From assembly GCF_018446385.1 (NCBI RefSeq), contig NC_055990.1, positions 27,241,891-27,305,890 of the forward strand: a stretch of DNA of 64,000 bases, given 5' to 3'. Of the stretch, positions 26,964-59,700 are shown piece by piece. A program made the translations under genes and the position numbers. How positions within the stretch are numbered: position 1 is the stretch's first letter; each line of letters opens with the position of its first letter. Under the pieces are notes generated by a model. It worked only from the letters and a program-made list of their open reading frames with translations. It had not been told where the DNA came from and searched no databases. Origin of the DNA: Zingiber officinale. Its lineage: Eukaryota > Streptophyta > Magnoliopsida > Zingiberales > Zingiberaceae.

Positions 26964-28174
26964 GAAGATTATCCACTGACTACGATATCAACAATACACA
27001 CACACACAAACAACAAAAAAGGTCAAAACTGCACAAAACCCTCATCCAAAGAACCAAATAACAAAAAAAAAAAAGATCGGCGAGACTTGCAGAATCACCT
27101 TACCTCCGTAACCAAAACTAAAAAACGACGACGACGAGTCTACTGATAACCAAATTGATCGGCAATCCCGCAGACTATGAAGAAGAAAGCGATGTCGCCA
27201 AAGCGAACTTGGAGACGTTCTTCCAGCGGCGGATCAATTGTTCAATTCCGAAAATAATCGCACCGCTTCTACATTACCTAATCGGTTGTGCTAACCTGCC
27301 ATTTCGAATCCAAAAGGCAATTTACTCCCAAATCGACCAAGCGCACAATTGGTTTCATACTTGACCCCACCGGTTTGGCCCGCAATGGCTCGGCCATTTG
27401 AACCAATCCCAAACAGGTAAGCAGAACGGGTGCCAAAAGAACGTGGTGAAAATGAACGAAAAATTGAACGCGGTGGGGAAGGGAGAACGTCACCAAAAGT
27501 AAACAGCATTGACGATCTTGACCATAGAGTTGTCATGATGAACGGCCAGGATGAGCCAATATCACGGATTTAGTTATTACGTTCGACCATTGGGTGCGGT
27601 CTTCTTCGTCACTAATGACGCCAGCGATGAATTTATTTATTTTTAAAACGGTTTTATAAAGGGAAAAAAATAAAAGTAACCAAAAGGAGATCTCATTTTT
27701 TAAAAAATATTATTATCATTTAAAATATATTTTGCATTGGTGACGATAATTGTAGTTATAGTTGTTAATACGTAGAATAAAATTATATTTCCAAATACTC
27801 TTATTATAATTTAATATTTTTTCAAAAAAATAGTTTCCTTTCTTCTTTATCAAAATAATAAATACATGTAAGAAATATTTACATTTGCCAAAATAATTAT
27901 GGGATTTAAGAGATAAGATACCAAAATTTGATTGTAACGGGCTTCCAAAGAATCAACTTTCCGAAATAAAATGATTTTTTTGATTGAAAATGAAAGGAAA
28001 AAAGTTGAATAAATTATAAGGTTATAAAATATGTGTATGTATCTAAACCTCAAATCTAGATCTTTAGAGGCCTTCCTCAAATTATAAGTCTTCATAATAT
28101 TCTCAAAGGAAATAAAAATAATTATAATTGTTCATGTTAGGCCGAACGTTTATTTACCTTGTTTATGCTCTTAT
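26964..28174. other. GR promoter/leader and AT-rich spacer
   Basis: Positions 26,964-27,540 are of mixed composition and should hold the 5' leader and promoter of the glutathione reductase gene. Positions 27,600-28,170 are AT-rich. Short frames here match nothing recognisable. Confidence 0.4.
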
Positions 28175-28509
28175 TTACTTTAAAACATGGATGAAGAATA
28201 GAAAGAGATCAAAGGTGAAAATTATCGTATAGGAAAGGAAAGAAAAAGGTGAAGGAAAATAAATAATATGAAAGAAACAGGGGAGGGAAAAGAATCCTTT
28301 GACAATAGTCCGTAGATTGTCACTCGTGTAGCGAAGCAGAAGAGGCCGACAGTGAAGAGGGGTGCAGCACTTATGGTGGCGAGAGGAAACAGTTTCTAGG
28401 GGTGCGAAAGCAGTCGTGGGGCTGGTGGGCAGTTCCATGAGGTGCGGAGTCAACACCGACGACACATCCTCTTCGTCTCCAGTGATGGCTGCCACATCCA
28501 GGATACAAC
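28175..28509 (-). other. unrecognised sequence downstream of the eIF3L fragment
   Basis: Continues on the minus strand from the eIF3L-like exon piece and can be read as an open frame starting MAAITGDEEDVSSVL, but it does not resemble the rest of eIF3L. It may be intron, or unrelated DNA joined when the gene fragment was moved. Confidence 0.3.
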
Positions 28510-28631
28510 CTGCAGCCTCTAAAAACTTCCCTCATACATCCAGTAGTGGATCTCGTACACGTTTTTCTCACGGATGTGGCGATACAGGTGGACGATGAAA
28601 GTCTTGACAAAATCTGGCATGAAGTTAGGAT
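28510..28631 (-). pseudogene. eIF3L fragment, second part
   Basis: The minus strand reads PNFMPDFVKTFIVHLYRHI then REKNVYEIHYWMYEGSF. This is the highly conserved N-terminal segment of translation initiation factor 3 subunit L (family form: PNFVPDSVKSFVVHLYRHI, REKNVYEIHQMYE). Relative to the family, one codon of EIHQMYE has become two (YW), and an in-frame TAG (28,519-28,521) replaces the Gln codon after GSF. Homology then ends. It is therefore a broken gene fragment. The preceding 35 codons are found 10.6 kb away at 39,207-39,311, on the other side of the Copia element. Confidence 0.75.
28627..28631. repeat. left target duplication of the Copia element
   Basis: AGGAT here against AGGGT at 39,207-39,211 (four of five identical). 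The placement is supported by the eIF3L reading frame on each side, which ends and restarts at exactly these five bases. Confidence 0.5.
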
Positions 28632-28765
28632 TAATGACATCAAATATAATAATTATGGAAAATAATCTCAAATTGATTTCGATCAATCAAAATTTATTAT
28701 ATTTGTCATTGTAATCAAAGATTAACAGGAAAAAATAATATTTTTAAATTTATTATATTCACTAC

Positions 28766-29686
28766 TGATTCTGTCTGAGAATTGAGGCGATGGACGTTGG
28801 AAGGCGTGGCGCTCCTATTGACTCTTGACGAACTCCGAGTTGAAGGGACCTGCAACCACAGCAACGTCAGTGCCAAGCCAGAGTGGGGTTCCCCGGCGAT
28901 GGCCCTCTGAAGCTCAAGTCAGCCTTCGACGGTGTATAAGTGAGGAAACGAAGAAGTAAAAGTAGCAACGTAACAGTAGCTACAATAGAGTTTCATACCT
29001 TCGTCGAATCTTGGGGGTCCTTATATAGGACTCTCGAAGAGCGCGTGCACGCTTCTCGAGGGATGCACACTTCTCAAAGCATATCCTGAAAAGATGTGTC
29101 GGAAAAGCATCTCTGACATCATACCTTAACAGCCCCGAGCATATCCTTGACAAGACGGTAGAAGTTTCCATTTGATGATCCTCTGCCTGACCATGCCGTT
29201 AAGCATGCCGCATGTTGGTGGCACTGGTTCCCAAAAGGATATCACCATCTACTCCCTTTGTTTGCTTCTGGGCCGAGCGGGAGAGCCACTCGGCTGATCC
29301 TCGTCCATTCGGACGGCTATCCCTCTTGGGGCCGAGCGGGAGAGCCGCTCGGCATGCCCTCAGTCATTCAGGAGACCTTGCCCTTGGGTCAAGTGGGAGA
29401 GATGCTCGGTCATCCTTCCACCGTCCGCTCGGCTGTGACTCCACTCTGTTGGTTTTGAGATTTCAGGCAAGTCCGAGCGAATTTGCCGCTCAGCCTCTGG
29501 ATTCACTGATACTTGATCTTTTGAGCGTCGGAAGCTCGGTCTGGAGTCGAGCTGTATTGATGTTCGATTAGGTTCTATTACTTCGGATCGGACGATGATG
29601 ATCAAGGTGTTAACCATCTTGACTTTAACCACCATCGTGTCATTGACCCTTCTACTGAGCAGGTCCGGCCTTACCATCGGATCACA
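28766..29686 (-). repeat. left LTR of the palindromic element (minus orientation)
   Basis: On the minus strand it starts TGTGATCC just after the polypurine tract and ends ACAGAATCA at the ACTAC duplication. A TATATAAGG-type box lies near 29,015-29,025 and reads outward (leftward). Confidence 0.8.
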
Positions 29687-30128
29687 TGTCTCCCCCTCAA
29701 GTCTAGTCAAAGGAGGTTGTAAGACCGACTGATTGGACAAGTAGTCTGAGTTGGATTGGCCGATCAACCGTGATACTGGTCTGGACTCCAATCGATTTGT
29801 CAAAGAGTGTCGAACGATCGTGAGACTGTTCCTTGAGGCTGCTCGGCGCTCCGCATATTTGCACTTCAAGAAATTTAATTTGTATCCTAGGGCGAGAACG
29901 GTCAATGTTGGAGTCACCCAAATCCCCTCGGAATTCGTGTAAATCAGGATCATTAAAGTCGAGCATGCACCCACGCCTGTTAATGACACCCATTAAATGT
30001 TGCCCTATAGGCGTGTGCTATGTGTCACTGCCACCGTCACCGCACGTCCGAAGCGACAGACGCCGATGTGACGTTCAGCGGTTTGAATTCAACAGCTGGA
30101 TCTGCGCTCCGGCTTCCGTGCCCTAGAT

Positions 30129-30697
30129 GGAAGGAATTTGGTATGAGCTGGGGAAGAGGAACGCGGAAGTTGTTACAAACTTCAAGAATAAAGGGATGGA
30201 TGGTAAAGCGGAGGTCGGCCACGAATTGGTCTCTGAATAGACAGATAGTATCGATCGACAGATCATTGGGCCGATCGGACGAAGAGGCTAGAATAATTTC
30301 GTGGTCAGAAGGAATTTCATAGACACTCCGGAGGCTCTCGGCGTCACCCGCGTCGAACCTGGTCTCCATGGTGGTATACCAGAGACCGGGAACGGGGTCG
30401 GACAGCTGGGAAGAATTGGCCATGATTGGAAAAGGGGAAAACAAGAGGATCGACGGAAGTGGTGGACGGAAAATGCATAGGACACTGGAAGGACGCGAGA
30501 ATCTGAAGGAACAGTAAAAGTTGCAAAAAACTTACAGAAAGAGGAGAGGAGGTGGCCGCCGAGGAAAATAGAGGGTTGTCGGAGCACTGGTTGCACAAGG
30601 AACTGCCTGCAGCTATCGGAGAAGAAGACGTGAGGCAAGAAACGGAGGTAACGCGACGGCTTTATAAAGATTGGGTTCGGCCGACCAGAGCCGTTCG
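30129..30697 (-). other. unique centre with TATA box and N-terminus of a gypsy-type ORF
   Basis: Read on the minus strand: a CTTTATAAAG box (about 30,659-30,668), a leader, then a start at MANSSQLSDPVPGLWYTT (ATG near 30,423). The sequence continues RSVYEIPSDHEIILASSS and FTIHPFILEVCN.FRVPLPQ. This pattern matches the N-terminal part of the plant 'putative gypsy-type transposon' family (PF04195). Only the beginning of that protein is present; the rest is replaced by the left arm. The promoter reads toward the left arm. Confidence 0.55.
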
Positions 30698-31139
30698 ATC
30701 TAGGGCACGAAAGTCGGAGCGCAGATCCAGTCGTTGAATTCAAACCGTCGAACATCACATCAGCGTTTATCGCTTCGGACGTGCGACAACGGTGGCAGTG
30801 ACACGTAGCACACGCCTATAGGGCGGCATTTAATGGGCACCATTAACAGGCGTGAGCGCGTGCTCGGCTTTAATGATCCTGATTTACACAAATTCCGAAG
30901 GGATTTGGGTGACGCCAGCGTCGACCGCTCTCGACCTAGAATACAAATTAAATTTCTTGAAGTGCAAATATGCGGAGTGCCGAGTAGCCTCAAGGAGCAG
31001 TCTCAGGGTCGTCCGACATTCTTCGACAAACCGATCGGAGTCCAGACCAACATCACGGTTGATCGGCCAATCCAATTCAAACTACTTGTCCAGTCAATCA
31101 GACTTACAGCCTCCTTCGACTAGACTTGAGGGGGAGGCA

Positions 31140-32060
31140 TGTGATCCGATGGTAAGGCCGGGCCCGCTCAGCAAAAGGGGCAATGACACGATGGTGGTTA
31201 AAGTCAAGACGGTCAACACCCCAATCATCATCGTCCGATCCGAAGTAATAGAACCCGATCGAACATCAATACAGCTCGACTCTAGACCGAGCTTCCGACG
31301 CTCAAAAGATCAAGTATCGGTGAATCCAGAGGCTGAGCGGCAAATCCGCTCGGACTTGCCTGAAATCTCAAAACCAACAGAGTGGAGTCACAGCCAAGCC
31401 GACGGTGGAAGGATGATCGAGCAGCTCTCCCACTCGACCCAAGGGCAAGGTCGCCTAAATGACTGAGGGCAGGCCAAGCAGCTCTCCCGCTCGGCCCCAG
31501 GAGGGGCAGCCATCCGAATGGACGAGGATCGGCCGAGTGGCTCTCCCGCTCGACCCAGAAGCAAACAAAGGAGTAGATGGTAATATCCTTCTGGGAACCA
31601 GTGCCACCGACATACGGCATGGTTGACGGCATGGTCAGGCAGAGGATCATCAGACGGATGCTTCCACTGTCTTGTCAAGGATATGCTCGGGCTGTTAAGG
31701 TATGGTGTCAGAGATGCTTTTCTGACACGTCTTTTCACGGTATGCTTTGAGAAGTGCGCATGCCTCGAGAAGCATGCACGCGCTCTCCGAGAGTCCTATA
31801 TAAAAACCCCCAAGCTTCGACGGAGGTATGAAACTCTACTGTAGCTACTGTTACGCTGCTACTTTCACTTCTCTTCGTTTCCTCACTTATACACCGTCGG
31901 AGGCTAACTTGAGCATCGGAGAGTCATCGCCGGGGAACCCCACTCTGGCTCGGCACTGACGTTATTGTGGTTGCAAGGTCCTTCAACTCGGAGTTCGTCA
32001 AGAGTCAATAGGAGCGTCACGTCTCCCAACGTCTATCACCTCGATTCTCGGACAAGATCA
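31140..32060 (+). repeat. right LTR of the palindromic element (plus orientation)
   Basis: Starts TGTGATCCGATGG after the polypurine tract and ends GGACAAGATCA at the ACTAC duplication. A CTATATAAAAA box (about 31,796-31,806) reads outward (rightward). Confidence 0.85.
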
Positions 32061-35000
32061 ACTACTATGATTATTATTATTATGATTGTATGTCATATTT
32101 AATATTTCCATTATTAATTAGATAATTTGTATAAATAAATCTTTGACTTCATCAATAAGATCATCCCAAAATAATTATTCACTATTTTCTTTATTTCTAT
32201 CATGGTATCAAAGTCATGATACATTATACTTATATCTTCCCTGAATCCCTCTTTTACTAATTCTCTTCTTTTAATTTTTTTTTATTCTCTTTTATATTTT
32301 CTCCTCCACGTTTCTTTTATCTGTTTTTCTTTTTCTTCTTTCTCTGTCTTTGTTTTTTTACCTCTTTTTCTCTCCATGTTTTTCTCCTTCATGCTTTTTT
32401 TCTCTGTCTCTATTTTCTTCTTTCCTCTGCCACTAACGCCAAATAATAATAAGGGATTTTGTCATCGCCCTTCTCCAGCCATCAAACTCTATTGGTGAAC
32501 TGCCCCATCAACGGCCTTCCTCCTCCAGTGAGATATAGGTCTCAGCGTCAATCATCACTAGGCGATTTCTGCTACCGCCCAACCAAGAAGTTGTGATCTC
32601 CTTGTATCATTGGATAGCAAGTTTCCAACCGCCGAAAATTCTTCCAGCAAGCCACAGCAGCAAACAAGGTTTATTACTATCAAAGGCCGAGTTATTTTAT
32701 TTTTGATGTGAAATACTCAGCAACATCATGGTGACCAAAAGCAAAGTTCATACCGATGTTAAATTTATCACATCATTGGTCATACTGGTATTCATTGCTC
32801 TAAAAGATTTAATTGATTTTATAGTTGAAGAATATATCAAATTTGTCTCAGAGTTGGACATATTGGTACTCAATGTCCTAAAAGATTTGGCTCAAATTTT
32901 GCTGTTGGTATTGCAGCATTAGGACAACCAACTATTTTACAAAAAGAACATGCATCTTCAAATTGACCACCACCTTCTTGGCAATCTATAACTCAGTCAT
33001 TTCATTCTGGAGCATTCTCACTTTCTTTCTCTCCTAATATAGTTTCAACGACTCCCGAGAACCCATGATGACATTCGGATTTTGGAGTAACTTATCATGT
33101 TACACCAGAGTATGATATTCTCACAGAGGCTTTGCCTTATCATGGACCCGATATGGTACAAATGGGTAATGGCTCAGGTTTGTAAATTACTCACCTTGGA
33201 AATACATCCTTTCACTCATGTGGTCGAACTTTTCGTATGCACAACACTCTTCATGTTCCTTCAATCACAAAAAATTTACTTTCTGTGCGTCAATTTGCTC
33301 TTGATAATAATGTGTCCTTTGAATTTCATCCTCATCATTATCTTGTAAAAGATCTCATGACAGTAATTATTTTACTCTAAGGAAGCATTAAAGACAACCG
33401 CTATCATCTTCAACCCACATATACTAATGTTTTTGTTGGAGAACACACTGACGAATTCTCTTGGCACGCACGTCTTGGGCATCCGTCTATACGTCTTGTT
33501 TAGAATATCATTAATCAGTATGGTTTAGCAAATTTTTAGCCTCTTCATCTCATTTATGTGAAACTTGTATAAAAGCAAAATCTCATAAATTATTTTTTAT
33601 GTCTTCTACTCACACCTCTAGTTTTCATTTATAAATTATTTACACCGATGTGTGGGGTTCTGCTCCTATTCTATAATTAAGGTTTTCTTTATTATGTTAT
33701 TTTTATTAATAATTTTAGCAAGTTTACTTGGGATTTTCTTATAAAAAGAAAGTCTTATCTCTTCGATATATTTTTTTGTTTTCAAAACTATATTGAGTGT
33801 TATTTTGATCGTAAAATACTCTCTCTCCATTATGATTGGGGAGGAGAATATCAAGCTCTTCATCGTCATCTTACCTCCTCTGGTATCCTTCATCGAGTCT
33901 CTTGTACGCACACTTCTGAACAAAATGGATCCGCCGAGAGGAAATATCGTCATATAATTGAAACTATCTTTGCTCTTCTTAGTCATGCCTCAATTCCGCT
34001 TACATTTTGGGATAACGCTGTCCAAACCTCAGTATACCTTATCAATCATTTGCCCACTCCACTACTTCAAAACAAAAGCCCCTTGAAAAGATTTTATAAT
34101 CGCTCTCCAGATTTCTCATTCTTTCGTATCTTTGGTTATATATGTTATCCTTGTTTGCGACCTTACTCTAAATACAAGTTAAACCCTCGATCTCAATAAT
34201 GTGTTTTCCTTGGTTATAGTGTTTGTATCATCGGTATCGTTGCCTAGATATATCAACTGGGCGGATATATATTTCTTAACATATTACTTTTGATGAGTCT
34301 CTCTTTCTATTTGTGTTGTTCCGTCGGACACTCCCTCAGACAATCAACACACTTTTCTAATTGCCCCTAATAGTATACCAGAACTATCATAGGTTGCTAC
34401 AACAAGACATACTCAAAGAACCAGGGAAGATGGATTTTTGGGCTCTTCTCCATCCCCACCAAATCTTGCAAACTCAATATCTAGCAATGTTTCGTTCTCT
34501 AGTCTTGATTCCCATCAATCTGACCACTCATCTCTGAGTAGTTCCAATGATGATACTTCTTGACGAATACTTCCTCTAAGCGAGATTTATGCTCGATGTC
34601 CACCAGTTTCCACCCGTTATCCTTTTCCATGGGCTTTAATTACTTTTCCAAGTTTTATTGAACCTACTAGCTTTACATAGACAGTCAAAGACCCAAATTG
34701 ACGTGTTGCAATGGCTACAAAGTTTGATGCTCTTCTCCATAATGAATCATGAACCTTAGTTCCTTGTACTCCATCTATGAATATTGTGGACTCTAAATGG
34801 GTTTACCGAATTAAGTATCAAGCAGATAGATCCATTGAACGTACAAAGCTTGCCTTATTACAAAAGGCTTTAGTCAATAACCAGGTATTGACTTCAATGA
34901 TACTTTCAGTCCAGTCGTCAAAATTACAACTATTAGATTGTTACTGTCTATAATTATTAGCTCCAATTGACCGATACAACAATTAGATATTTCCAATGCT

Positions 35001-35819: not shown

Positions 35820-38612
35820 TAGACTTGACCACGGTTTGGAATCGACAGTTGGACGGTTCGGAACCGCCGGTTCGACGGTTCCAGGCAGGTCGACCCTTAA
35901 CCTTAACCGCCTAAGACGGTTATGGTTCACGGTTCAGAACCACCGGTTCACGGTTCGTCACGGTTCGCCACGGTTCAAGATTAATATGTTACAAAAATTA
36001 AAAATTAAAAATTAAACATTAAACATTAAAAAATAGAAATTAAAATTTATTGAAAAAAGGACTTGCACTTATTTAAGTTGCCTACGTATCCCTTTAGGGG
36101 AATCAAAGCCCACATAGTTCTTTTACATTTTTATCCTTTTATATTTTCATTCACTTCCATTTCCTGTTCTTGTCGTATTTGTTCCTTCAGTATCAAAATC
36201 TTCAACTTCGTCATCTGAAAGTTGCATTCCTTGGATTATTTTCTCCGCTCTGGTCCAATCGTCCAGTAATGCTTGGGCTTCCAATGAGTCGGGAGACAAA
36301 GTTGATTGTCGTTCATCTAATATGTTGTCGCCGACACTGAACGTCTGCTCCATAGCAACAGTTGACACTAGACAAGCTAAAATTTCTTTTGCGATCACGA
36401 AGAGAACGGGAAAGCTTTGAGCCTTCTGTGACCACCACTTTAAGATATCGAAGTTTTCGCTATCTGCTTCATTAAAATCAAAAGAAGTCGTAAAATAATT
36501 CTCAAGTTCCTGTGTGGAACTTGAGGATCCTCGTGGACGTTTTGTCCGTTCTTTTAATAAGAGTTGTGCTTTTGTAAGTTTTAAATTACTACTAGTAGTT
36601 TGTTGTATTTCAGAAATATTAATTTGTGTTCTATATTTTGCATAATATTGATTATAAATATCATATAAATAAATTCTAATATTATATATAATATTAACTG
36701 GATCAGGGGAAGAAGAATCTTTAATTGGAATTAAAGCGTCATAATATAAAGTTAACATTTCTCGTAAAACTTCTAATTTAAATTTAGGATCTAAAGAAAA
36801 TGCAATTACATAAATTTCAGGAATTAAATAAAAATATTTTTCTCAATTAGTTTTCATAGCTAAGATGTAAGGAGATAAAGATTCATTATTAATATGTTCA
36901 TTTAAAACTAATACTATATTAAAAAAAAATTTAAAACTAATTGAGTAGTGGAATAATAAACATCAGAAAGTTGTTCAGTTGCATCATTAAATACTTTTAA
37001 AATTTCACAAATACTACTACAAATATTCCATTGTTGTGAAAATAAATATATATTAGTATTAGTGTTTTATGTAAAAAAAAATGAACATAATAATTCTTTA
37101 TATTGAAATGAATCTTGTAATAATTGGTATGTTGAATTCCAACGTGTTGGTACATCACGTGGAAATTTTTTAGGTCTCATTCCATTAATTTTACAAAACC
37201 TGCCCCATTATTTCATTATAGATGGATGAGACCATAAATAAGAAATTACAATTCTAATTGGTTTAATATAACCTTCTAAAATTTTTAAACCATCTTGAAC
37301 ACATAAATTTAAAACATTGCATACACAACGAATATGAAAAAAATAAACCTCCAATAATAGGTTGACAAATAAATTTTAGATCATCTATACAAGCGGTATT
37401 GGAACTAGCATTATCTAATGACATTGAAAATATTTTATGAGTTAAACCATATTTTTCTAAAATTAAACATAATAATTGTGCGATATTATGAGCATTATGT
37501 CATTCATCAAAAACTCTATAAGCTAATAATTTTTTTTGGAGGTTCCAAAAGTTATCGATCCAATGATAAGTCACACCCATATACGAATGTGTTTGTCAAT
37601 GATCACTCCAAATATCGGAACATAAAGAAACTTTATTATCTAATTTACTAAATTCATCAATTAAATTCTTTTTTCTTGTTTTACTAATTTTTTAATTGTA
37701 CGAGTAAGTGTAGTCCTAGGAACACGTTTAGCACATGGATTAAGACATTCTTTACAAAAATCTTTAAATGTGCATTTAGATCCAAAACTAAAAGAAGATG
37801 TTCGACGGAAACAAATTTAGCTAATGATTCTCTTAATTTATTATCCGAATATAAAAATAAACCGAAATCGGTACTACCGCTAGTTGAAGAAAATCTTGAT
37901 AATTGTGTTTGAGAACGGTCGAGTCCATATTCCGTCAGGTGCTTCATTTCTACATGACGACCCATAGCTGCCGCCGGCTTGGAATTTGTAGGAAGCATTG
38001 CAGTGCTTACATTTTGCACACATTTCTCCCGACGGAAGAGTGACATTCTCAAAATGTTTAGTGAAAATAGAAGACTTTAGAGGAGGAAGTTCCCGAACCT
38101 TAGAAGTAATTGCATCGGTACTTCCTTGTGTTTCGGGTGTCGGATTCAGAAGATGCTCGATCTCATCATCGGTGGATTGAATGTTGGGGTCCTCCTCCCG
38201 CGGATTCATTATTTGCTTTCCCTTCCGAGCTCGAAATGATGCACCTCTGCGGCCTCCTTCCATTGTAATTGAAAATTGACAACGAAAGCGTGTAAAGATT
38301 AGAGAATACAAAAATGAGATTAAGAGTAGAGAAGATGTGTGTGAAAAATGATGAAATGAGCTCTCTATTTATAGAGTTTTGATAGTAACAGACACTAAAT
38401 CATAGTGATTGATAAAAAAACGATCAAATGATCCTAACCGTTGAAAAAAATACCCAAAAAAACCCTCCCAACGGCTACGAACCGCCGGTTAACCTATGGT
38501 TCAAGCCGTTTAAAAAAATAAAAAAAATTTGCAGCTGAACCGCCGGTTCAACCCGCCGATTAACCAGCGGTTCGCCGGTTTTACAACCAATGAACCGGAA
38601 CCGGCCCAGCAA
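35820..38612 (-). mobile_element. hAT transposon (BED-finger, RNase-H-like) inside the Copia element
   Basis: Minus-strand transposase pieces. The N-terminal piece starts at 38,263 (MEGGRRGASFRARKG) and contains a BED-type zinc finger start (CAKCKHCNASYKFQAGGSYG). The C-terminal piece at 36,758-36,147 is an intact 203-residue frame with the hAT dimerisation region (YFTTSFDFNEADSENFDILK, FPVLFVIAKEILACLVSTVA, EQTFSVGDNILDERQSTLSP). The middle (36,800-37,870) is broken by stops and frameshifts. Subterminal regions on both sides carry repeated CGGTTCG/GAACCGCCGG motifs. The ends lie between TCTCTCGCTT and CTTGCTCTAG, which look like a diverged 8-bp duplication within the RNase H reading of the host Copia element. 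Exact ends are uncertain by about 5 bp. Confidence 0.75.
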
Positions 38613-39067
38613 CTTGCTCTAGAATTGAAGCTGAATATAAAGTTATCGCCAATGTGACATTCGAAATTATTTGGCTACAATCTCTTCTTTTGAAATTACA
38701 TTTTTTTCACCTGATATAGCCAAAATCTGGTGTGATAATACAGGAGCAATTTAACTTGTAGCAAATCCAGTCTTTCATGCTCGTACCAAGCACGTGGAGA
38801 TTGTTTTTTCATTTTGTTCATGAACATGTGGTGATTCGACAACTTTTGGTTTCTTACGTCTCTACGTAAGATGAAATTGTTGACATATTCACCAAACCAT
38901 TTTCTAGATAATGTTTTACCAAGTTAGTAATCAAACTCAATGTTCGGGTACTCTAGTTAAGTTTGTCGAGGGTAATGACACCAAAGAAAACAGTTATTAA
39001 AAATAATCTTGAATCATATTTGACATCGTGATCAAAGATTAACAGTAAAAGATAATATTTTCATATT

Positions 39068-39094
39068 ATTTATTATTATTATTATTATTATTAT
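39068..39094. repeat. (TTA)n microsatellite in the right Copia LTR
   Basis: About nine TTA units. A shorter run occupies the same place in the left LTR (near 32,072). Confidence 0.9.
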
Positions 39095-39206
39095 AATTAT
39101 ATGTCATATTTAATATTTACGTTAGATAATTTATATAAATAAGTCTTGGGCTAAATCAATAAAATCAACTCAAAATAATTATTCTTTATTTTCTTTATAT
39201 TTATCA

Positions 39207-39311
39207 AGGGTAGTAGCCGATCTCGACAGCGGCCCCACCTCCTTGGCCGGAGGAAGGAGGCAGCAGGGAGTACTTGGGCTCAGGCGAACCATCATCGTAC
39301 AAGTTCGTCAT
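39207..39311 (-). pseudogene. eIF3L fragment, first part (N-terminus)
   Basis: The minus strand starts at an ATG at 39,311 and reads MTNLYDDGSPEPKYSLLPP then SSGQGGGAAVEIGYYP, 35 codons that stop exactly at the Copia insertion. The next codons of the eIF3L N-terminus (PNFMPDFVKTF) resume at 28,631 on the far side of the element. Charged, low-complexity N-termini followed by YDPNFVPDSVK are usual in plant eIF3L. A leader-like region continues to about 39,480. Assignment rests on the continuity with the strongly conserved part at 28,510-28,631. Confidence 0.65.
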
Positions 39312-39856: not shown

Positions 39857-41272
39857 TTACGTATTCTCTTCTCTTAAAAAAAGCGACAAAATTAACAAGT
39901 TGAATACGACAAAAACAACGCCCAGAGAAGAGAGAGTGGCATTCTCCGACGAGCGACCACCGGAGGTAAGGAAAACCGGGTGCGTAACCGCTGTCTTGTT
40001 GCAGCGTCTCAGGTATCGGCCTGCGGCGGCGGCGGCGACTTCGAGCTCCTCGCCCAGACACAGTTCGTGATTACCGGCCAACTTCAGCTTGCCGTCGAGG
40101 CGGCGGACGAAAACGGCGGAAAAAGGAACGCGGCCACGTAGCCCATTGTTCTCCAGGTTGATCTCCATGGCCGTGCTCTCCATCCGCTGGAATTGCTCCG
40201 GGAGCTCCCCTTCGAGTTTGTTATTGTCCAACGCCAGGTAGGTTACTCTTCCCAAGTAGACTCCCATCGATGCCGGAATGTTGCCGACCAGACCGAGCCG
40301 CGACATCCCGACGCCCAGGATGCCCCCCAGCTTCTCCCATATCTCTGGGATGGCACCGCCGACGGGGTTTCCGCTCAGGTGCATCTCCCGCAGGTTCTCC
40401 AGCTCTGCCAGCCATGCCGGCACGCCGCCGGTGAGTCGGTTGCCGCTCAGATCTAGAAGTTCCAGCCGTTTGAGATGACTGAGTTCAGCCGGGATCATGC
40501 CAGCTATTCTGTTGGAAGAGATGTCCAGCTTGACCAGCTCCATCAGGCTACCGATCTCGGACGGGATCGCCCCGCCGATGCGGTTCCCACTTAGATCCAA
40601 CACTTTGAGGAGGGCGAGTCGTCTTATCGAGCGAGGAATCTCGCCTCCGATACTGTTCTGCGAAAGGACTAGCTGCTCCAGGCCGCGGAGATCTCCAACC
40701 TCGGGAGGAATTATTGCGGATATCCGCGATCCGGAGATGATGAGGCGGCGCAGGCGAGACAGTCCGGTGATTCTGCCACCGAGACGGCCGCCGAGAGAAG
40801 GGTTCCGGTAGAAGGCAATCTCCTCGACGGTGGATGACAGATTCCAGAAATCGAGGGGGAGGATGGCATTCGCCGCGGTGAAGCAGTTGTAGAAGAATAC
40901 CTTTCGAAGGAAAGGGAACGAGGAGAGGGAGGTCGGGAGAGTTGCGTTCGGGCCGCACGGTGGGTTATTGGAGAAATCAGAGACGTTACCGAAGTTGAGC
41001 TCCACGACGTGAGGGGATCCGTCGTCGCCGGCGTCGTTAGAGGATGGAAAAAGATCGCAGACGAGTCCATGGGGGCCGAAGAGGCACAGATCGTCGGGGT
41101 AGAGCGAGCGCCAAGGAACAGAAGGGTTGACGGACTCGAGGGCGCGGTAGGCCGCCTCCTGCTCGAGTTCCGGCAAGCGTAGAAGCGGAAGTTCCACTCC
41201 ATCGCCGGCGACGACGATGCATCGGAGGAAGAAAACAACCAGAGAAACAAAGCAGCGACCTTCGAAAGCCAT
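39857..41272 (-). CDS. leucine-rich repeat protein, PII-2-like
   Basis: A single-exon gene for 471 residues with no interruption. The N-terminal signal peptide is hydrophobic (SLVVFFLRCIVVA). The cysteine-containing cap has PWRSLYPDDLCLFGPHGLVC and VSDFSNNPPCGPNATL, the signature of plant Piriformospora-indica-insensitive-2-type LRR proteins. About ten plant-type LRRs follow (residues ~150-400), e.g. LEQLVLSQNSIGGEIPRSI and LVKLDISSNRIAGMIPAEL. A hydrophobic C-terminal segment (LGVVFVVFNLLILSLFL) is a likely membrane anchor or GPI-type signal. There is no kinase domain, so it belongs with receptor-like proteins. Several N-glycosylation sequons (NATL, NLSS, NKTA) fit an extracellular domain. 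The known family member in Arabidopsis is needed for growth promotion by a root endophyte. The gene sits alone between transposon blocks and looks functional. Confidence 0.9.
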   Translation of the reverse strand: MAFEGRCFVSLVVFFLRCIVVAGDGVELPLLRLPELEQEAAYRALESVNPSVPWRSLYPDDLCLFGPHGLVCDLFPSSNDAGDDGSPHVVELNFGNVSDFSNNPPCGPNATLPTSLSSFPFLRKVFFYNCFTAANAILPLDFWNLSSTVEEIAFYRNPSLGGRLGGRITGLSRLRRLIISGSRISAIIPPEVGDLRGLEQLVLSQNSIGGEIPRSIRRLALLKVLDLSGNRIGGAIPSEIGSLMELVKLDISSNRIAGMIPAELSHLKRLELLDLSGNRLTGGVPAWLAELENLREMHLSGNPVGGAIPEIWEKLGGILGVGMSRLGLVGNIPASMGVYLGRVTYLALDNNKLEGELPEQFQRMESTAMEINLENNGLRGRVPFSAVFVRRLDGKLKLAGNHELCLGEELEVAAAAAGRYLRRCNKTAVTHPVFLTSGGRSSENATLSSLGVVFVVFNLLILSLFLREENT

Positions 41273-43939: not shown

Positions 43940-46900
43940 TAAAGCCGTCAAACGGGTCAACTCGTGGCAGGGCGGACCAATCTACCAAAAACCCAACATT
44001 TGACAGGGCGGGGCGGGCCGACCCACCATCCCGGCGGACTACGTACAAAACTTTCAACCCAACCCAATTCAAGACGGGCTGCGGGTTAGGTGGACCAACC
44101 CGTGAGCCTGTAAAAAATAAAAAAAATAAACTAATCAATATGAAAAATCATCACTGATAAGTGATAATTATTCTCATCCAGCACTGTTTATTTCATTACA
44201 AAACTGCAGTGGTTATTTGAAAACTCCAAAATCCAAATCCAGAAGACTAAAAAAATACAAAATTTCATATTCCACGGTCTAGACTACAATTCTACAAATT
44301 CTAAATTCTAATGCAGACTCCAAATTCCAATCCAAAACATAACAACATTACATAACAAATCAGTAAGCACTACTGCCAAAACATAACAACATTACATTTA
44401 CAGCAACTCAACATAACAAATCAGCAAATAAGCACTACTGCCAAAACATAACAGCCTTACATAGTTACATTTACAGCAACTCAGCAAGCTGTAAGCACTA
44501 CTCCACCACAGGCACCGCAGTTCGTAGGTTCAGCAAGTCAACAATGCTGCCAAAACATAACAACATTACATTTACAGCAACTCAGCAAGTACTGCCACTA
44601 CACCACAGCCACAGTCCACAGGTCCACAGCAGACCATAGCAATCAGTAAGTCAACATTACTGTCAAAACATAACAACATTACATTTACAGCAAGTTGTAA
44701 GTAAGCACTAAGCACTACTAGTCTACTACACCACAACCATAGTCCGCAGATCGACAGACTAGTAGACCATAGCAATCAGCAAGTCAACAATACTACCAAA
44801 ACATAAAATAAAACTGAAACGAAAAATTCAATAACTCTAACACAATATTTTTTAAATTTCATCAATAACATCATCCACATCAATTTCTTCTGATCCTCCT
44901 TTACCTCATTTCTCTTCATTAATATCCTCTTCTAGAGTATTTGATTCTTGCTTAGAGAATGTTATTTTTATATTTGCATTGTCTTCATTATCTTTATCTG
45001 CATATAAAATATACAAGGCTGAAGATAGTTAAAAAATAAAATAACAATAAAATAATATATCAACTAAGTTAAGAACATAACTAAAATAAATAAAATTACC
45101 AATAGCATAACCATGTAACTAATTGCGAGTGCAAATAAGAGCTTGCACTTTTTCATGAAGGGTGCAACTTCTATACTTGGTAAGCACACGAGCACCAATG
45201 GAAAAAGCTTATTCTGATGCAACAGTACTTATAGGAATAGCTAAAACATCATATGCCATTAGTGCAAGGGTTGGATACCGATGCTTTTGATTCTTCCAAT
45301 GCTCCAAAATATCCAAATCTTGATAATAAGTAAATTCAAGTTTTGGCTCCTCCAAATAGAGATCCAATTGAGATTTTCCAGCATTTGTAATTGTTTGGCT
45401 CTCATATGCCATCATTTCCTGCATTAATTGAAATAGTAGTGACCAAAAAAATTATAAATCAATCAGAGAATACAAGGAAAAAAATATTATAGTACTTACA
45501 TCAAAGATTCTTTTGTTCTTTCCTTTAACTCCTACACTTTGTGAATGTGTATGTATGGTAAAAGATTGTGGTTGTGAAGAACTTGTATTGTTCATATTAG
45601 AATACTGGTCAAAAAGCTTATACAATTTTGTCTCCACAAGATCCATCTTCTTTTGGCATTTAAGAGCATCACTTTCAACCTTCGAATAAAAAAACTCCAA
45701 CATTGAAAGTTTTATTCTTGGGTCAAGAATAGCTCCAAATGCAAGCACCATGCTATATTGAGTCCAATACTTGTCAAACTTCTCTATCATTTTTTTACAC
45801 ATACAACTTATCACCTCATCTTCATTCGATAAGTTTTCCTTTAACAAAACTTCAATTTTCCAGACTTGCATAAAATATAAATTTGATGTAGGATAAGAAG
45901 AACTAGAGATCAAATTGGTAGTGTCATAAAATGGCTTAGGGAACTCACATATTTTCTCTCCTCTTTTCCACTCTTCACTTGAAGGACAATATTTATAATT
46001 CTTGTCATTGAATTAAAGAGATGCAAAAGTTTTTTTATATTTGATGGCACTATCCAGCATTAAATATGTTGAGTTCCAACGAGTAGATACATTCAATCGC
46101 AAGCCAATACTAGTATCAATGTTACCAACTGCTTGCACACACTCTCCAAATTTCTTCATCCTAATCTTTGAACCTTTAACATACTTGACCGTCTCTCTAA
46201 TTTTATTCAAAGCTACAGTAGCCATTTTCAAACATTCTTGGACAATGAGATTCAATATATGAGCAGAACAACGAACATGAAAAAATTCACCGTCACATAA
46301 TAAACTATCATGCAAAAAGAGTTGCTCTTTCAAATGAACTTGCATGTTATCGTTACTAGATGCATTATCCAATGTCAAAGAGAAAACCTTTTTCTCAATT
46401 CCCCATTCCTTCAAATATTCAAATAATTTTGCAGCTAATTCAACTCTTGAGTGTGGAGGGGGAATATGAGAAAAACTAAGTATTTTACTATTCAATTTTC
46501 AGTCATTATCAACAAAATGGGCAGTCAAGCAAATATAACCCTCACTTGTGCACGCCGTCCATAAATCTGAAGTTAAACAAACTCTATTCTGAATAGTTGT
46601 CAAAACATACTTGAGTTTTTATTTCTCCTTCAAGTAGATTCGGTTAATATCAGAAACAAGAGTATTTCTAGAAATGCAAGCAACATCAGGATTTATATAC
46701 TTCATCCAAGTTCTAATACCGTCATACTCAACAAATGAAAATGGTAAATCATGTCTGATGATTGCATAAGCCAGTAACTCACGTGACAACTTTTGATTTA
46801 TTTTCTTAGATCTCATCTTCCCATCTTGATCAAGAATCATTTGTCCTACATCATTAAACTTTAATTTGTCACAAATTTTAAAATGACGCCACAACGTAGA

Positions 46901-51235: not shown

Positions 51236-54200
51236 AGGTAAGTAGGGTAAGTCACTGGAGCGGAGTTACTTGGTGAGGACACGTTTCTAGTTAGGGAACT
51301 TAGACATCGATCCAATTTAGATCCATTTTAAAAATCTAAGTTGAGATCGTGACTAGATTCTTGTTTCGTGGATACAGAATCTAATTACTACTCTAAACTG
51401 TTATAATTGTGCTAACACTTTGTTTTGCATGGTAGTATAAGTTTTATTTGCCTCAGACTGACTTTGTCTTACAGGAAAAGCAGCCTGCTGGAAAAAGAAG
51501 GTCCGGGCGCCGGGGAGTGGTCCGGGCGCCCGGAAGGCAAATTTTATCTCGACAACTTGGAGTGTGCCGATTGGTTGGCTGACATCACGGTCCAGGCGCC
51601 CGAAGCACTCCTATAAAAGGAGCTTTTCACTAGAGCTTCGTAGAACACCTTTTCTCTGCGATTGCTCTCGTGCATGCTGCTTCCAAGACGCTCTTGCTAC
51701 ACTGTGAAGCTTCTCCGACAACCAACGATTCAGTCCTTATTTTCTTGTTGTCGGTAATTCCATTTTACAAGTTCTTGTACTTAATCTGTAATCCTTTTTG
51801 CGAACTACTAGTGATTGCCCAACAAAAGCACTCTCACGTGCGGGCCTTGGAGTAGGAGTCGACGAAGGCTCTGAACCAAGTAAAATTGGTTTTGTTAGCG
51901 TTATGCTTGTTATTTTCGCTGCGTACTAGATTTGATTTTTGAATTCTCGATGAATACTATTCACCCCTCCCCCCCTCTCACTCTAGCGAAATCTACGATC
52001 CAACAAGTAGTATCAGAGCGGGTACCATTCTGATTTGGTGCAACCACCAATCAGGCAAAGGGGGTAAAAGTCTTTTTCTTTTCTCATTTCTTCGGTTTTT
52101 AAGTTTTGCGAAATAATCCAGATTGGTATCATTGCCTCTTTGGAAATTTTTTTTTTTCTAGCAATTTAAACTAAACTGGTGCAACACCAATTCAGTCTTA
52201 AATTTTTACTTTTTCTCCCACACTGCTAAATCAAGACCAAGTCTTGGGATCCTCTTCTTTGTTTTTTTGTGTGTAAGAATTATAGCCCAAATTGAGGGAT
52301 TCAGCACCGTCCGTCCTCCTCTATTCAACGGTGACGACTTCCCGTACTGGAATAAGCGAATGGAGATTTATCTAAAGAACAACTTCGACCAGTGGTTCAG
52401 CGTCACCAGAGGCTACAAGGCTCCGGTTGGCAACTCCGGAAATCCAATGAACCCGAAACATTGGAATCCATAGATGAAGAAGAAAGCTTAGACGAACTTC
52501 AAAGCCCTAAACACATTACAATGCAGGCTAACAAAGGAAGAGCTGAACCGAGTGTGCCCACACGAAAATGCGAAGGAACTGTAGAAAAAGTTCATCAAAC
52601 TTCATGAGGCAACCAGCGATGCTAAGGTAACCAAATGAGATCTTTTCTTAAATAAATTATTTAATATTAAAATGCAGGAAGGAGAATCTGTAAGTCAACT
52701 CAACGCGAAGATCAAAGACATCCTGAACGGGCTTCACACTATCAGCCACCAAATGGAGAACCACGATTTAATAAGGTACACCCTGAATTTGTTTCCTCGA
52801 AATGCATTGTGGGCATCCATCGTGGATGCCTACAATATTTTGAAGAATCTTTCAAAATTAAAATTAGATGAATTATTTTGTGAATTTGAGCTACACGAAC
52901 AAACTAACGCCAGAACCGACAAAGGTGTTATTTTTTTTTGCAGGTTCCTCCAAAGAAAAGTCAAGAACCAAGCCTGAATCTGAAGGTGAGTCTGACCAAG
53001 ACTCAGAAGATTGTTGGATCATGAAATTCGATAGGGGGGGGTGAATATCGATTGAAAAATTCATAGTCGAGTGCACAGCGGAAAAGTAAAAGAACAACGC
53101 TAATAAGAACCGGTTTTACTTAGTTCGGAGCCTTCGTCGACTTCTACTCCAAGGTCCGCACTCGTTGAGTGTTTTCGTTGGGCAATTCACTAGAAGTTCG
53201 TAAAAGATTACAAATGCAAATACACGAACTTAAATAAACAAATACTGACAACAAAATAAAGTAAAGAAAAACTCTTAGTGGCACGTTGTCGGAGGAGCTT
53301 CGCAGCTTTGTAGCTTCGTAGTTTCACAGGAGTACAACGCAATAGAGCAGATGCCGTTGTTGTTCTTTCCTTCAGGGCTCACCCTCCTTATATAGGAGGC
53401 TCCGGGCGCCCAGATCCTTCTGGGCGCCTAGACTGTGACGTAGCCCAGCCAACCAGTGAGTTCCATGTTACAACGACTTGCGGGAATAACATTTGTCTTT
53501 TGGGCGCCCGGACCAATTTCGGACACTCGGGCCAACTCCGGGCACCCGGATCCCTTCCAAGCGCCCGGACCACCTTTCTCCAGAAAGTCCTTCTCCTGCA
53601 AGAAAGAGTTAGTCCGAGGCAAAATAATAGCTAAACTACCCTGTAAAACAAAAGTTAGCACAATTATAGTAAAATTGAGTAGTAATTAGATTCCGTCTCC
53701 TCGAGACCGGAATCTAATCACAATCTCAACTTAGATTTTCGAAATGGATCTAAGTTGGATTGACGTCTAAGTTCCCTATCCGGGAACGCGTCCTCATAGT
53801 CACTCTCCTCCAGTGACTTACCTTAACTTACTTGCCAGACGTCCAGTCAACCCGTCACCTGTCTGGACTTCATGCAAGCTACCCGGTTAGCCTGTCGACC
53901 TAGCAACACTGAGTTAGGACAATAGATAAAAATAGTACAGTAAACCTAGGGTTACCTCCCTAAGGTTGCCTAGCTTCACTCACTAGGATTTCTATTGCCC
54001 GACTTCACTCACCAGGACTTTTGATAACTAGTATTTTGTGTATTATTTTGGCTCTTATTATTGATATTTTTACCTTCTCACATACTTAATTTGGTGTTTA
54101 TACTATGTGTTGTAAGTAGGAACTTATTTTGGGCTTAATTATAAATTTCCTACAAATTGTGAAATTTAATTTCATTTTTTTATGTGGTTTTGTAGGAAAT

Positions 54201-55582: not shown

Positions 55583-56261
55583 AGAGTACTACTATTCACC
55601 GACCTTGGGGGTTCCGGAGCTGGGTCTTTGTGTGACGACGAGGGTAGTCGTTGGTAATCGGAAGCGGAAGTGTGGATTGTGGTTCGAATAGTTAGAGTTT
55701 TCTTGTTTAGTTGACTTAGTTTAATTTTGTTCATTGCTTATGCTTACTTGTGTTGATATTTTGTGGTTGAATGCTTGTATTAATATGATTTTCCATGTTT
55801 AAATTGCACTTACTATGCTTAATTAGTTACACGCCTACAATTTGTTCGATGAAATGCTTCAACCAATAGTTAGGTTCAATTTAATGCATTTTAGTTTGTT
55901 TAATTCTTGTTTTGTCTTGTTTTTTTAATTTAATTAAGTTCTAGTTTTGATTAAATGCAATTAGGATAGATTAGTTTAGATTTCTTTAATACTTTAGGTT
56001 TCGTTCCATGCTTAGTTTTGTTAATGTTTTACTTCACGTTGTCTTTTATTTTCTTAAATTGCAGTTAGGATAGACTTAGATGTTATTACTTGTATTGTCT
56101 TTTATTTACTAGATTAACTTTCATTTAATGCTTTGTCATTTCATTTCTTAGTTTAATTGTGTTGATAGTTAATCCATAACGTAGTGTGACAATACGTTGT
56201 GGATTAATTATTCACACTTAGTTAGATTTCATTTCAGCACTAGATTAGATTTCATTTCAAC

Positions 56262-56716
56262 ATTAGATTTAATTTTTAATTTAATTTAATTTAATTTTTA
56301 ATTTAATATTAATTTAATTTAATTTGATATTAATTTAAGTTAATTTAATATTAATTTAATTTAATTTAATTTAAGTTAATTTGATATTAATTTAATTTAA
56401 TTTAATTTAAGTTAACTCAATTTACTTTAAGTAAATTTAATTTAATTTTATTTTTAATTTAACTTAATTTTTAATTTAATTTAATTTAATTTAATTTAAT
56501 TTTTAATTTTAATTTTTATTTAATGTTAATGTTAATGTTAATGTTAATGTTAATGTTAATTTTATTTTTTAATTTAATTTAAATTTAATTTAAATTTAAT
56601 TTTTAATTTAATTCAATTTAATTTAATTTTTAATTTTAAAATTTTAATTTAATTTAGTTTTTAATTTAATTTTTAATTTTAATTTAATTTAATTTTAATT
56701 TTAATTTTAATTTAAA
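56262..56716. repeat. TTAATTTAATTT microsatellite with a (GTTAAT)n patch
   Basis: About 450 bp of degenerate TTAATT and TTTAAT units. A regular (ATGTTA)n run of about seven units lies at 56,520-56,560. It is not the plant telomere repeat. Confidence 0.9.
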
Positions 56717-59700
56717 ATCCTTATTCATCTCACCCGATCTACGTTTTCAATCAGAGAATTTTATAATTTTTGTGAGATGAGTTAAGTTCAATTTTAGGAT
56801 TCGGTTTAACTTTGTGTTAGATTTAAGTTTAGCTTTGGTTCAACAAACAGACATTTTCTGGATAAACTTCTGGGCTATGGTGAGTCACTTGAACATCATT
56901 AGAGTAACCATGCCTTCGAGGTTTTCCAAATAGTCCTATCCATTGAACTTAATACAAAACCTTGGTCTAACTAGTTAGGATCCGTAAGGGGTAGGTTCGG
57001 TTAGTTCCACTAAGCCAAATGCACCAGGTCGAAGCCATATCTTCCTAGACATGCATGGACAGAGTTTTCCTAACGTACTATCATCTAAAACTTCACCAGT
57101 ACTGTATGTCAAGTTAAACTTTTGTCCCTTTTCAAGCTGATCCTAATTACCCTGCGGGGTAGTTTATTTTTGGTTACCCAATCGGGTAGATTATTTTTGG
57201 AGATACCAACTAGTTTGGAGCCTCCCCTGAATTATTGATAAAAAATTTTAAGTTTTAGTTTTTATTAGTTTTTAAATTCAAATTGGTTGAATTATATTTG
57301 TTGATTAATTTCATAATCAAAAGATACTTGATTATATCTTAGATTTGGTTTAGACTTGTAATTGAAGTCTAGATTTAATGATTTAATTATCTGTTCTTGT
57401 TTATGAATTTTGTTTTCCAAAAGATTGATTTATTTTTATAATTTCCTAAACCTTGAATATGAAATTTTAAAGATTAAAGAATTGTTTTCTAAATTGTTAT
57501 TTAGTTTTTTATTAGTTAATTTATTTGGTTGAGCATGCATATCTAATTGTTGAGGTAAATCCAAACTAGAGCAATGATGATTATCTAATTTACTAACATG
57601 TGTAGAAAAAAAATTAGATTATCATGTATAGTAAACTTACTAACCTTTGCTCCCCCTGGATGCTTGGGTCTTCTTTCTGGGCATTGAAGTTTGTAGTGAC
57701 CCATCTTTTTACAATTGAAGCATTGGATATCCTCCTTCCCTTTTTGAACTTTAGGTGTCGACTTCTCCTTTACGTCTGGCTGTGTGGTTCGAGTCTTATA
57801 GGTGGGACACTTACTTTTGTAATGCCTTCTTTCACTGCATTTAAAACATATTAAATGATATTTGAATTTTGAATTTACAAATTTACCTTTAGAATTCTTG
57901 TTAGGATTCTCCTCCTTGTCCATCGTCGTCTCATATTCGAATTCTGACTTTTGTTCTAACTCTGATTCATATCCTTTTACCTCTCCTTGTGCCATTAAGG
58001 GCATAAAGCTGGTTTGGTCTGATTTTGAGGATGACTCTAGAGATTCAAACTCAGATTCAAACTCTAGTTCGACTTGATCTTTTAGTTCCATCGGCTCCTC
58101 GTGAAGCTTGATCAACTGGGTCCAAAGCTCATATACATTCTTGTACATTTCTAGTCTGCATATAACATTGTTAAGTAAAACATTACAAATTAATTTACTT
58201 GCATTTTTGTTTAATTCTTAATCCCGAGAAGGCTTTTTCAATATCAACACATTATCAAAATTTAGACTTCCTAAGAATCATTCCATTCCTCACCTCCAGT
58301 AGTTGAAATCTTCTTGATCATATGGTGGTGGTTCGTGGATGCTCCGTCCTTCTTGAATAGACATTGGTATATTTACAAAAAAAATAGATAAGAAACAATT
58401 TCCAAGACTTTGTCTTGGGGTAAGCAATGTGGGAGATAAAGAAATATGCGTGAGAAAATATTTTTTTTAAAATAATAAAATATTAAAAAAATATTATTAC
58501 AAATTTTGTTAAACGCGATATTTTGTCAACACTAGCCAACGGTGAAAAAATGAAAATGAATTTTTCAAAAATATTTTTGGAGGGAAAAAACGAAAGGTGT
58601 ACGCAGCGGTACCTGCTCTGATACCACTTGTTGGATCATGAAAATCGATAAAGGGGGAGGGGGTGAATATCGATTGAAAAATTATCGTAGCGAGTACGCA
58701 GCGGAAAAGAAAGAGAACAACGCTAACCAACTCTGAGCGCCCGGACCACCTTTCTCCAGAAAGTCCTTCTCCTGCAAGAAAGAGTTAGTTCGAGGCAAAA
58801 TAATAGCTAAACTACCCTGCAAAACAGAAGTTAGCACAATTATAGTAAAATCAAGTAGTAATTAGATTCCGTCTCCTCGAGACTGGAATCTAGTCACAAT
58901 ATCAACTTAGATTTTCGAAATGGATCTAAGTTGGATCGACGCCTAAGTTCCCTACCCGGGAACGCGTCCTCACAGTCACTCTCCTCCAGTGACTTACCTT
59001 AACTTACCTGCCAGACGTCCGGTCAGCCCGTCGACCCGTCTGGACTTCATGCCAGCTACCCGGTCAGCCTGTCGACCTAGCAACACTGAGTTAGAACAAT
59101 AGATAAAGATAGTACAGTAAACCTAGGGTTACCTCCCTAAGGTTGCCTAGCTTCACTCACTAGGACTTCCATTACCCGACTTCACTCACCATGACTTCCT
59201 CCACCTAGCTTTACTCACTAGGGCCCAACTTCACTCATTGGGACTTCCACCGCCTAGCTTCACTCACTAGGACCCGACTTCATTCACCGGGACTTCCACC
59301 ACTTTACCTAATCTTTCGTTAGAACTTACCTTTGCTAGTCATCTAGTCCTGACTAGACTTCTCTCTCCCAAATATCAAGTCCTGTTTGGGTCAACCCTTG
59401 CTCATATTGTCAAACATCGAAACCCTAGAAGTCGATTGCACCAACAAAGACGAAAAAACCTGGTGAACTTGGTAAGAAAAATATTCACTAAGAGAAAGAA
59501 GAACTTCAGCAGAAATGACCTGCAGAAGATCAACTCCACTACTGAACCAAAGAATGTGACCTGCTTCGGATGCAACAAGAAGGGTCACTACAAGAACGAG
59601 TGCCCGAAGTTGAAGAACGACAAAACCAGGGCAACCAAAAAAGAGGCACTCAAAGTAACGTGGGACGAATCGTCTTCTGATGAATCGGATGCCGAAGATT

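Follow-up and report, generated by a model that had tools for sequence, protein, structure and literature searches.

Within a stretch of 64,000 nucleotides from the Zingiber officinale genome (hereinafter the window), a fragment of a provisionally Retand-like LTR retrotransposon lies at 28766-32060 as a palindrome with two inverted LTRs. We consider it probable that this is a dead insertion made in a single event, that the DNA was already palindromic at the time of integration, and that it arose by the joining of two unfinished cDNAs, each ending in U5. A copying error before insertion is the most likely source of the mirror-image structure, and we rate the finding as a faulty product of cDNA synthesis that integration has captured. 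It looks like a natural record of a plant retrotransposon integrase that apparently can insert DNA with two U5 ends, in which both the target duplication and an uninserted relative of the target are visible.

Arms, LTRs and the interrupted antisense ORF

Comparison of the window with itself agrees to the base level with the arms, LTRs, polypurine tracts, internal parts, centre and target duplication delineated in the preliminary description of this DNA. The left arm (28766-30128) repeats the right arm (30698-32060) in inverted orientation, a relation that BLAST recovers as a single inverted match of 1,369 columns with 89.9% identity extending to 30132 and 30694, and a repeat search as four collinear inverted blocks of 89-91%. 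Arm identity continues through CCCTAGAT (30128 / 30698) with divergence beyond, and the junction was set at this point, where the agreement of the arms stops, rather than at the end of the BLAST match. Each arm combines an outer LTR of 921 bp (left, 28766-29686, minus strand; right, 31140-32060, plus strand) with an internal copy of 442 bp (left, 29687-30128, minus; right, 30698-31139, plus) that has a polypurine tract at its end. The left tract, TTGAGGGGGAGACA (29687-29700, minus), abuts the left LTR at its inner, U3 side, and the right tract, TTGAGGGGGAGGCA (31126-31139, plus), lies on the inner side of the right LTR. The orientation of these tracts, together with the TATA-type motifs of the left LTR (CTATATAA, approximately 29021, minus) and of the right LTR (TATATAAA at 31797, plus), places U3 inside and U5 at the outer end in both LTRs, which thus read outward. 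The element is, in other words, composed of two 3' ends and zero 5' ends; neither the repeat search nor BLAST found the pair of LTRs in direct orientation that a complete LTR retrotransposon has. The equality of the arms, also noted in the preliminary description, holds at 1,363 bp each but carries no evidential weight by itself, because a head-to-head join of unequal 3'-end fragments always yields equal arms and a centre unique to the longer fragment. The middle 931 nucleotides fold far more strongly than shuffled sequence (z -27.5, 20 shuffles), as is inherent in any long inverted repeat. Each LTR also contains three diverged copies of a GC-rich motif of 40-41 nt at a spacing of 57-59 bp (29270-29426; mirror 31401-31556).

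The unique centre of 569 bp (30129-30697) holds a candidate antisense promoter, a leader and the start of an ORF. The candidate promoter is a TATAAAG-type motif (30662-30668, minus) upstream of the ATG at 30423, from which an antisense ORF of 128 codons runs (30037-30423, minus). Of these codons 98 are native and 30 are read from the left arm, as the ORF is broken after residue 98 by the head-to-head junction (30128/30129) and fused to that arm. A Pfam scan of 10 proteins of the window, 4 of them within the element, matched this ORF to positions 1-38 of the 69 in the Transposase_28 profile (PF04195) with an E-value of 0.0074 and a score of 16.9 bits, below the curated cut-off of 26.2. The match terminates at residue 98 (codon 30132-30130), adjoining the junction, and the 98 native residues alone give a similarly weak, half-length match (profile 1-37, E 0.0059). 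In the accessible part of PMC11963269, 97% of Retand clusters are recorded with antisense ORFs bearing the Transposase_28 domain between pol and the 3' LTR; the accessible text of PMC7264820 locates antisense ORFs of Grande, RIRE2 and Retand in this position too, and describes that of maize Grande as transcribed from a promoter of its own. As antisense TRP28 ORFs in this position are typical of Retand, the centre and the right arm together would represent a normal Retand-like 3' end, to which the left arm is a foreign join. The place and strand of the ORF relative to the polypurine tract and LTR are as in Retand, with a PF04195 match that is half-length and sub-threshold. None of the 4 scanned ORFs of the element matched pol, and the reverse transcriptase and integrase on which lineage classification is based are absent from it. 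Because of the sub-threshold match and the absent pol, the Retand-like (Ty3/gypsy) assignment, predicted from sequence, is a provisional one. A pair of mirrored 197-codon ORFs (29360-29953, 30873-31466) was also considered as a possible protein and rejected, having no Pfam match and no synonymous bias: differences number 8, 23 and 21 by codon position, with 18 synonymous and 30 non-synonymous codons.

Target site and origin of the palindrome

The outer ends of the element are those of an LTR retrotransposon: they show TG...CA and a 5-bp target duplication, in addition to the polypurine tract beside U3. The duplication, ACTAC, is found at 28761-28765 and 32061-32065; among 200,000 randomly drawn pairs of flank 5-mers, 0.2% match by chance. 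The insertion splits a host repeat (28635-32202, plus), leaving about 130 bp on the left and about 140 bp on the right. Its TG...CA ends (28635, 32202), followed by a PBS-like TGGTATCAAAG, suggest that it is probably the LTR of another retrotransposon. A related copy of this repeat lacking the insertion is present at 38973-39209 (plus) and matches both flanks across the site. When joined at the duplication, the flanks yield an alignment with 39013-39209 that runs across the site (210 columns, 80%); when they are aligned separately, the left match stops at 39073 and the right match starts at 39074. Unaligned AT-rich simple sequence in the related copy takes in 9 bases to the left of the site and 2 bases of the duplication, so that the target bases themselves are unreadable from this relative. 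The duplication and the uninserted relative spanning the site together point to a single integration of a ready-made palindrome, and speak against a pair of insertions or a subsequent inversion. Next to the insertion is a fragment (28522-28641, minus) for which we make no claim to its possible resemblance to the translation factor eIF3 subunit L; it gave no matches in Pfam or PDB, and there were no Rfam matches over 28000-33000.

Several other features were observed elsewhere in the window. A direct repeat pair (53560-54020 / 58736-59197; 462 columns, 94.6% identical, starts 5.2 kb apart) encloses a zinc-knuckle gag-like ORF (57585-58148, minus), and probably represents another retrotransposon, with matched edges lacking TG...CA. 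Two pieces of hAT transposase correspond to the dimerisation region (36147-36758, E 1.9e-19) and the RNase-H-like domain (45452-45913, E 4.6e-29), the latter with a neighboring ORF (46013-46495) that weakly matches DUF659 (E 0.068). An open 471-aa ORF with leucine-rich repeats is found at 39857-41272 (LRR_8, E 2e-25). Overlapping self-matches of about 79-83% identity cluster in a tandem-like manner at 56244-56718, and a 100-bp inverted pair (1412-1511 / 2062-2161; 94% identical, 550 bp apart) is possibly a small inverted-repeat transposon.

Three observations support the earlier proposal of a palindrome that predates integration and consisted of DNA with a 3' (U5) end on both sides, namely the duplication bordering each outer U5 end, the related uninserted site in the window and the junction that cuts the TRP28-like antisense ORF. 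As set out in the accessible text of PMC3187697, synthesis of the minus strand begins next to U5 and, once transfer has taken place, proceeds through U3 and the polypurine tract and beyond. Given this order of synthesis, unfinished minus strands have the U5 end in common. In the route that we propose, two minus-strand cDNAs would have started at U5 and halted after 1.4 and 1.9 kb, both containing the LTR, the polypurine tract and the antisense-promoter region, with the start of the antisense ORF in addition in the longer one. The unfinished 3' ends of the two could then have united through mutual priming or end joining, to produce linear double-stranded DNA that had a U5 attachment end at each extremity and, by necessity, equal arms, and that integrase would have put into the older AT-rich repeat. 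At most TTC is common to the two sides of the junction, with no clear microhomology, which makes cross-priming and end joining indistinguishable here.

The same arms, centre and ends are also predicted if a single minus-strand cDNA snapped back and copied itself up to its U5 end, to form a hairpin with a 569-nt loop that was opened or replicated before integration. The closed form of such a hairpin would, however, possess one attachment end, with the second calling for an extra opening or replication step, and the junction offers no clear microhomology from which the strand could have primed; we therefore think this route unlikely. A rearrangement that followed insertion, or a pair of independent insertions facing opposite ways, would be in keeping with the frequency of nested and rearranged elements in plants and with the approximately 10% difference between the arms. 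Against this, the outer ends bear matching 5-bp duplications of the low chance frequency given above and one related copy matches both flanks across the site, and an inversion would require a breakpoint exactly at the end of an LTR, all of which leave this scenario decidedly improbable.

Decay of the arms and fate of the insertion

The preliminary description had also envisaged a non-autonomous family propagating in this palindromic, inverted-LTR form. Such a family would account for the integrase-type ends and the clean target duplication, but otherwise finds no support, and we regard it as very improbable. The TATA motifs of both LTRs face outward, BLAST self-comparison revealed no second copy within the 64-kb window, and the mirrored 197-codon ORFs are free of synonymous bias. 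As the U5 ends abut host DNA and its duplication on both sides, no primer binding site follows an LTR. The best 12-mer of the tRNA-Met type, the one type searched for, has 2 mismatches and lies inside the right LTR. With outward LTR transcription, no primer binding site and no direct R repeats for strand transfer, an ordinary route of self-copying would be unavailable to the element. Viral contigs yielded 0 exact matches to one 30-mer and 9 pattern matches, none of which encodes a relative of the antisense ORF. Overall, the element has the appearance of a dead, one-time insertion and not of a member of a spreading family.

With a palindromic insertion of this kind, a 1.36-kb inverted repeat enters the genome in a single step. 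Read-through transcription starting at an external promoter would turn this repeat into a long hairpin RNA directed against the parent family, which is a possible route to silencing loci. It is conceivable, albeit a long shot, that palindromic cDNAs with two U5 ends are a recurrent, integration-competent by-product here, and that their insertions act as hairpin-transcribing loci that supply small RNAs targeting the parent Retand-like family, or even propagate as a family of their own. Insertions with two U5 ends would probably be overlooked by annotation software designed to find direct LTRs.

Among 1,364 ungapped columns (ending at 30131 in the left arm, 3 columns beyond the junction), the two arms show 134 differences, comprising 117 transitions and 17 transversions. 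Sorted by the context of their own neighbors, the transitions occupy 39 CG, 37 CHG and 41 CHH sites, compared to 149, 112 and 381 unchanged sites, such that CG and CHG are enriched relative to CHH (odds 2.4 and 3.1; p 4e-4 and 1e-5). The left arm carries the T/A state at 65 sites, the right arm at 52. Transitions biased towards CG and CHG are the pattern left by decay of methylated cytosines in plants. We infer that the arms started out identical or almost identical and decayed mainly via C-to-T changes at methylated sites. If they were identical at insertion, the K2P distance of 0.108 between them corresponds to an age of about 4 million years at an assumed rate of 1.3e-8 per site per year. 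Double-hit CpG dinucleotides (CA versus TG), a further potential sign of decay, lend no support, with 3 seen where 1.4 are expected and chance gives up to 6. The LTR part (28771-29686) differs at 79 of 914 columns, versus 54 of 445 in the internal part (29687-30131, including 3 columns past the junction; p 0.051); by context CHG alone reaches p 0.050, with no comparable difference in CG and CHH. This slight gap counts against a simple history, as a single origin does not predict it. Palindromes are a recognised class of artefacts, and a fold-back read in the assembly or library could in principle generate one, but arms made in this way are expected to be near-identical rather than to carry the above differences with their methylation-decay pattern; such an artefact is hardly credible.

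Comparison with known systems

Our literature search, which left subscription literature mostly outside its reach, found no case of a plant element integrated with its LTRs inverted and a target duplication outside them. In the accessible part of the triticale report, the "LTRs in opposite orientation" refer to PCR between separate elements. The classic structure of the locust Gypsy-25 element is said to include an inverted LTR pair (PMC8786324, accessible part), a wording that may be loose. This is an insect element compared by description only, and the accessible description gives no junctions, duplications or two-U5 build. Foldback and other long-TIR DNA transposons are similar in that long inverted arms flank a unique centre. 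Unlike them, the arms here consist of LTR and polypurine tract, with integrase-type ends and duplication. A Foldback DNA transposon was ruled out by these ends, by the polypurine tract and by the lack of a DNA-transposon transposase match among the 4 scanned ORFs of the element.

DIRS-like elements are not known to make a target duplication, whereas ACTAC flanks this element on both sides. The inverted orientation of the LTRs is shared with DIRS-1, which according to the accessible text of PMC5633606 uses a tyrosine recombinase and circular intermediates; the 5-bp duplication and TG...CA ends of the present element instead suggest an integrase. A region that could encode a tyrosine recombinase is absent from the fragment.

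The Retand lineage shares with this element a polypurine tract and LTR that adjoin a region containing an antisense TRP28-like ORF (a sub-threshold match here), as well as TG...CA ends and a 5-bp duplication. Unlike Retand elements, the present one lacks pol, a 5' LTR and a primer binding site, and possesses two inverted 3' ends. Aberrant forms of retrotransposon cDNA, including autointegration products and end-joined circles, have reportedly been described by Garfinkel (2006) and Yang (2023). These are likewise faulty cDNAs joined before or instead of normal integration; those forms are circular, whereas the one found here is a linear palindrome with two U5 ends that became integrated.
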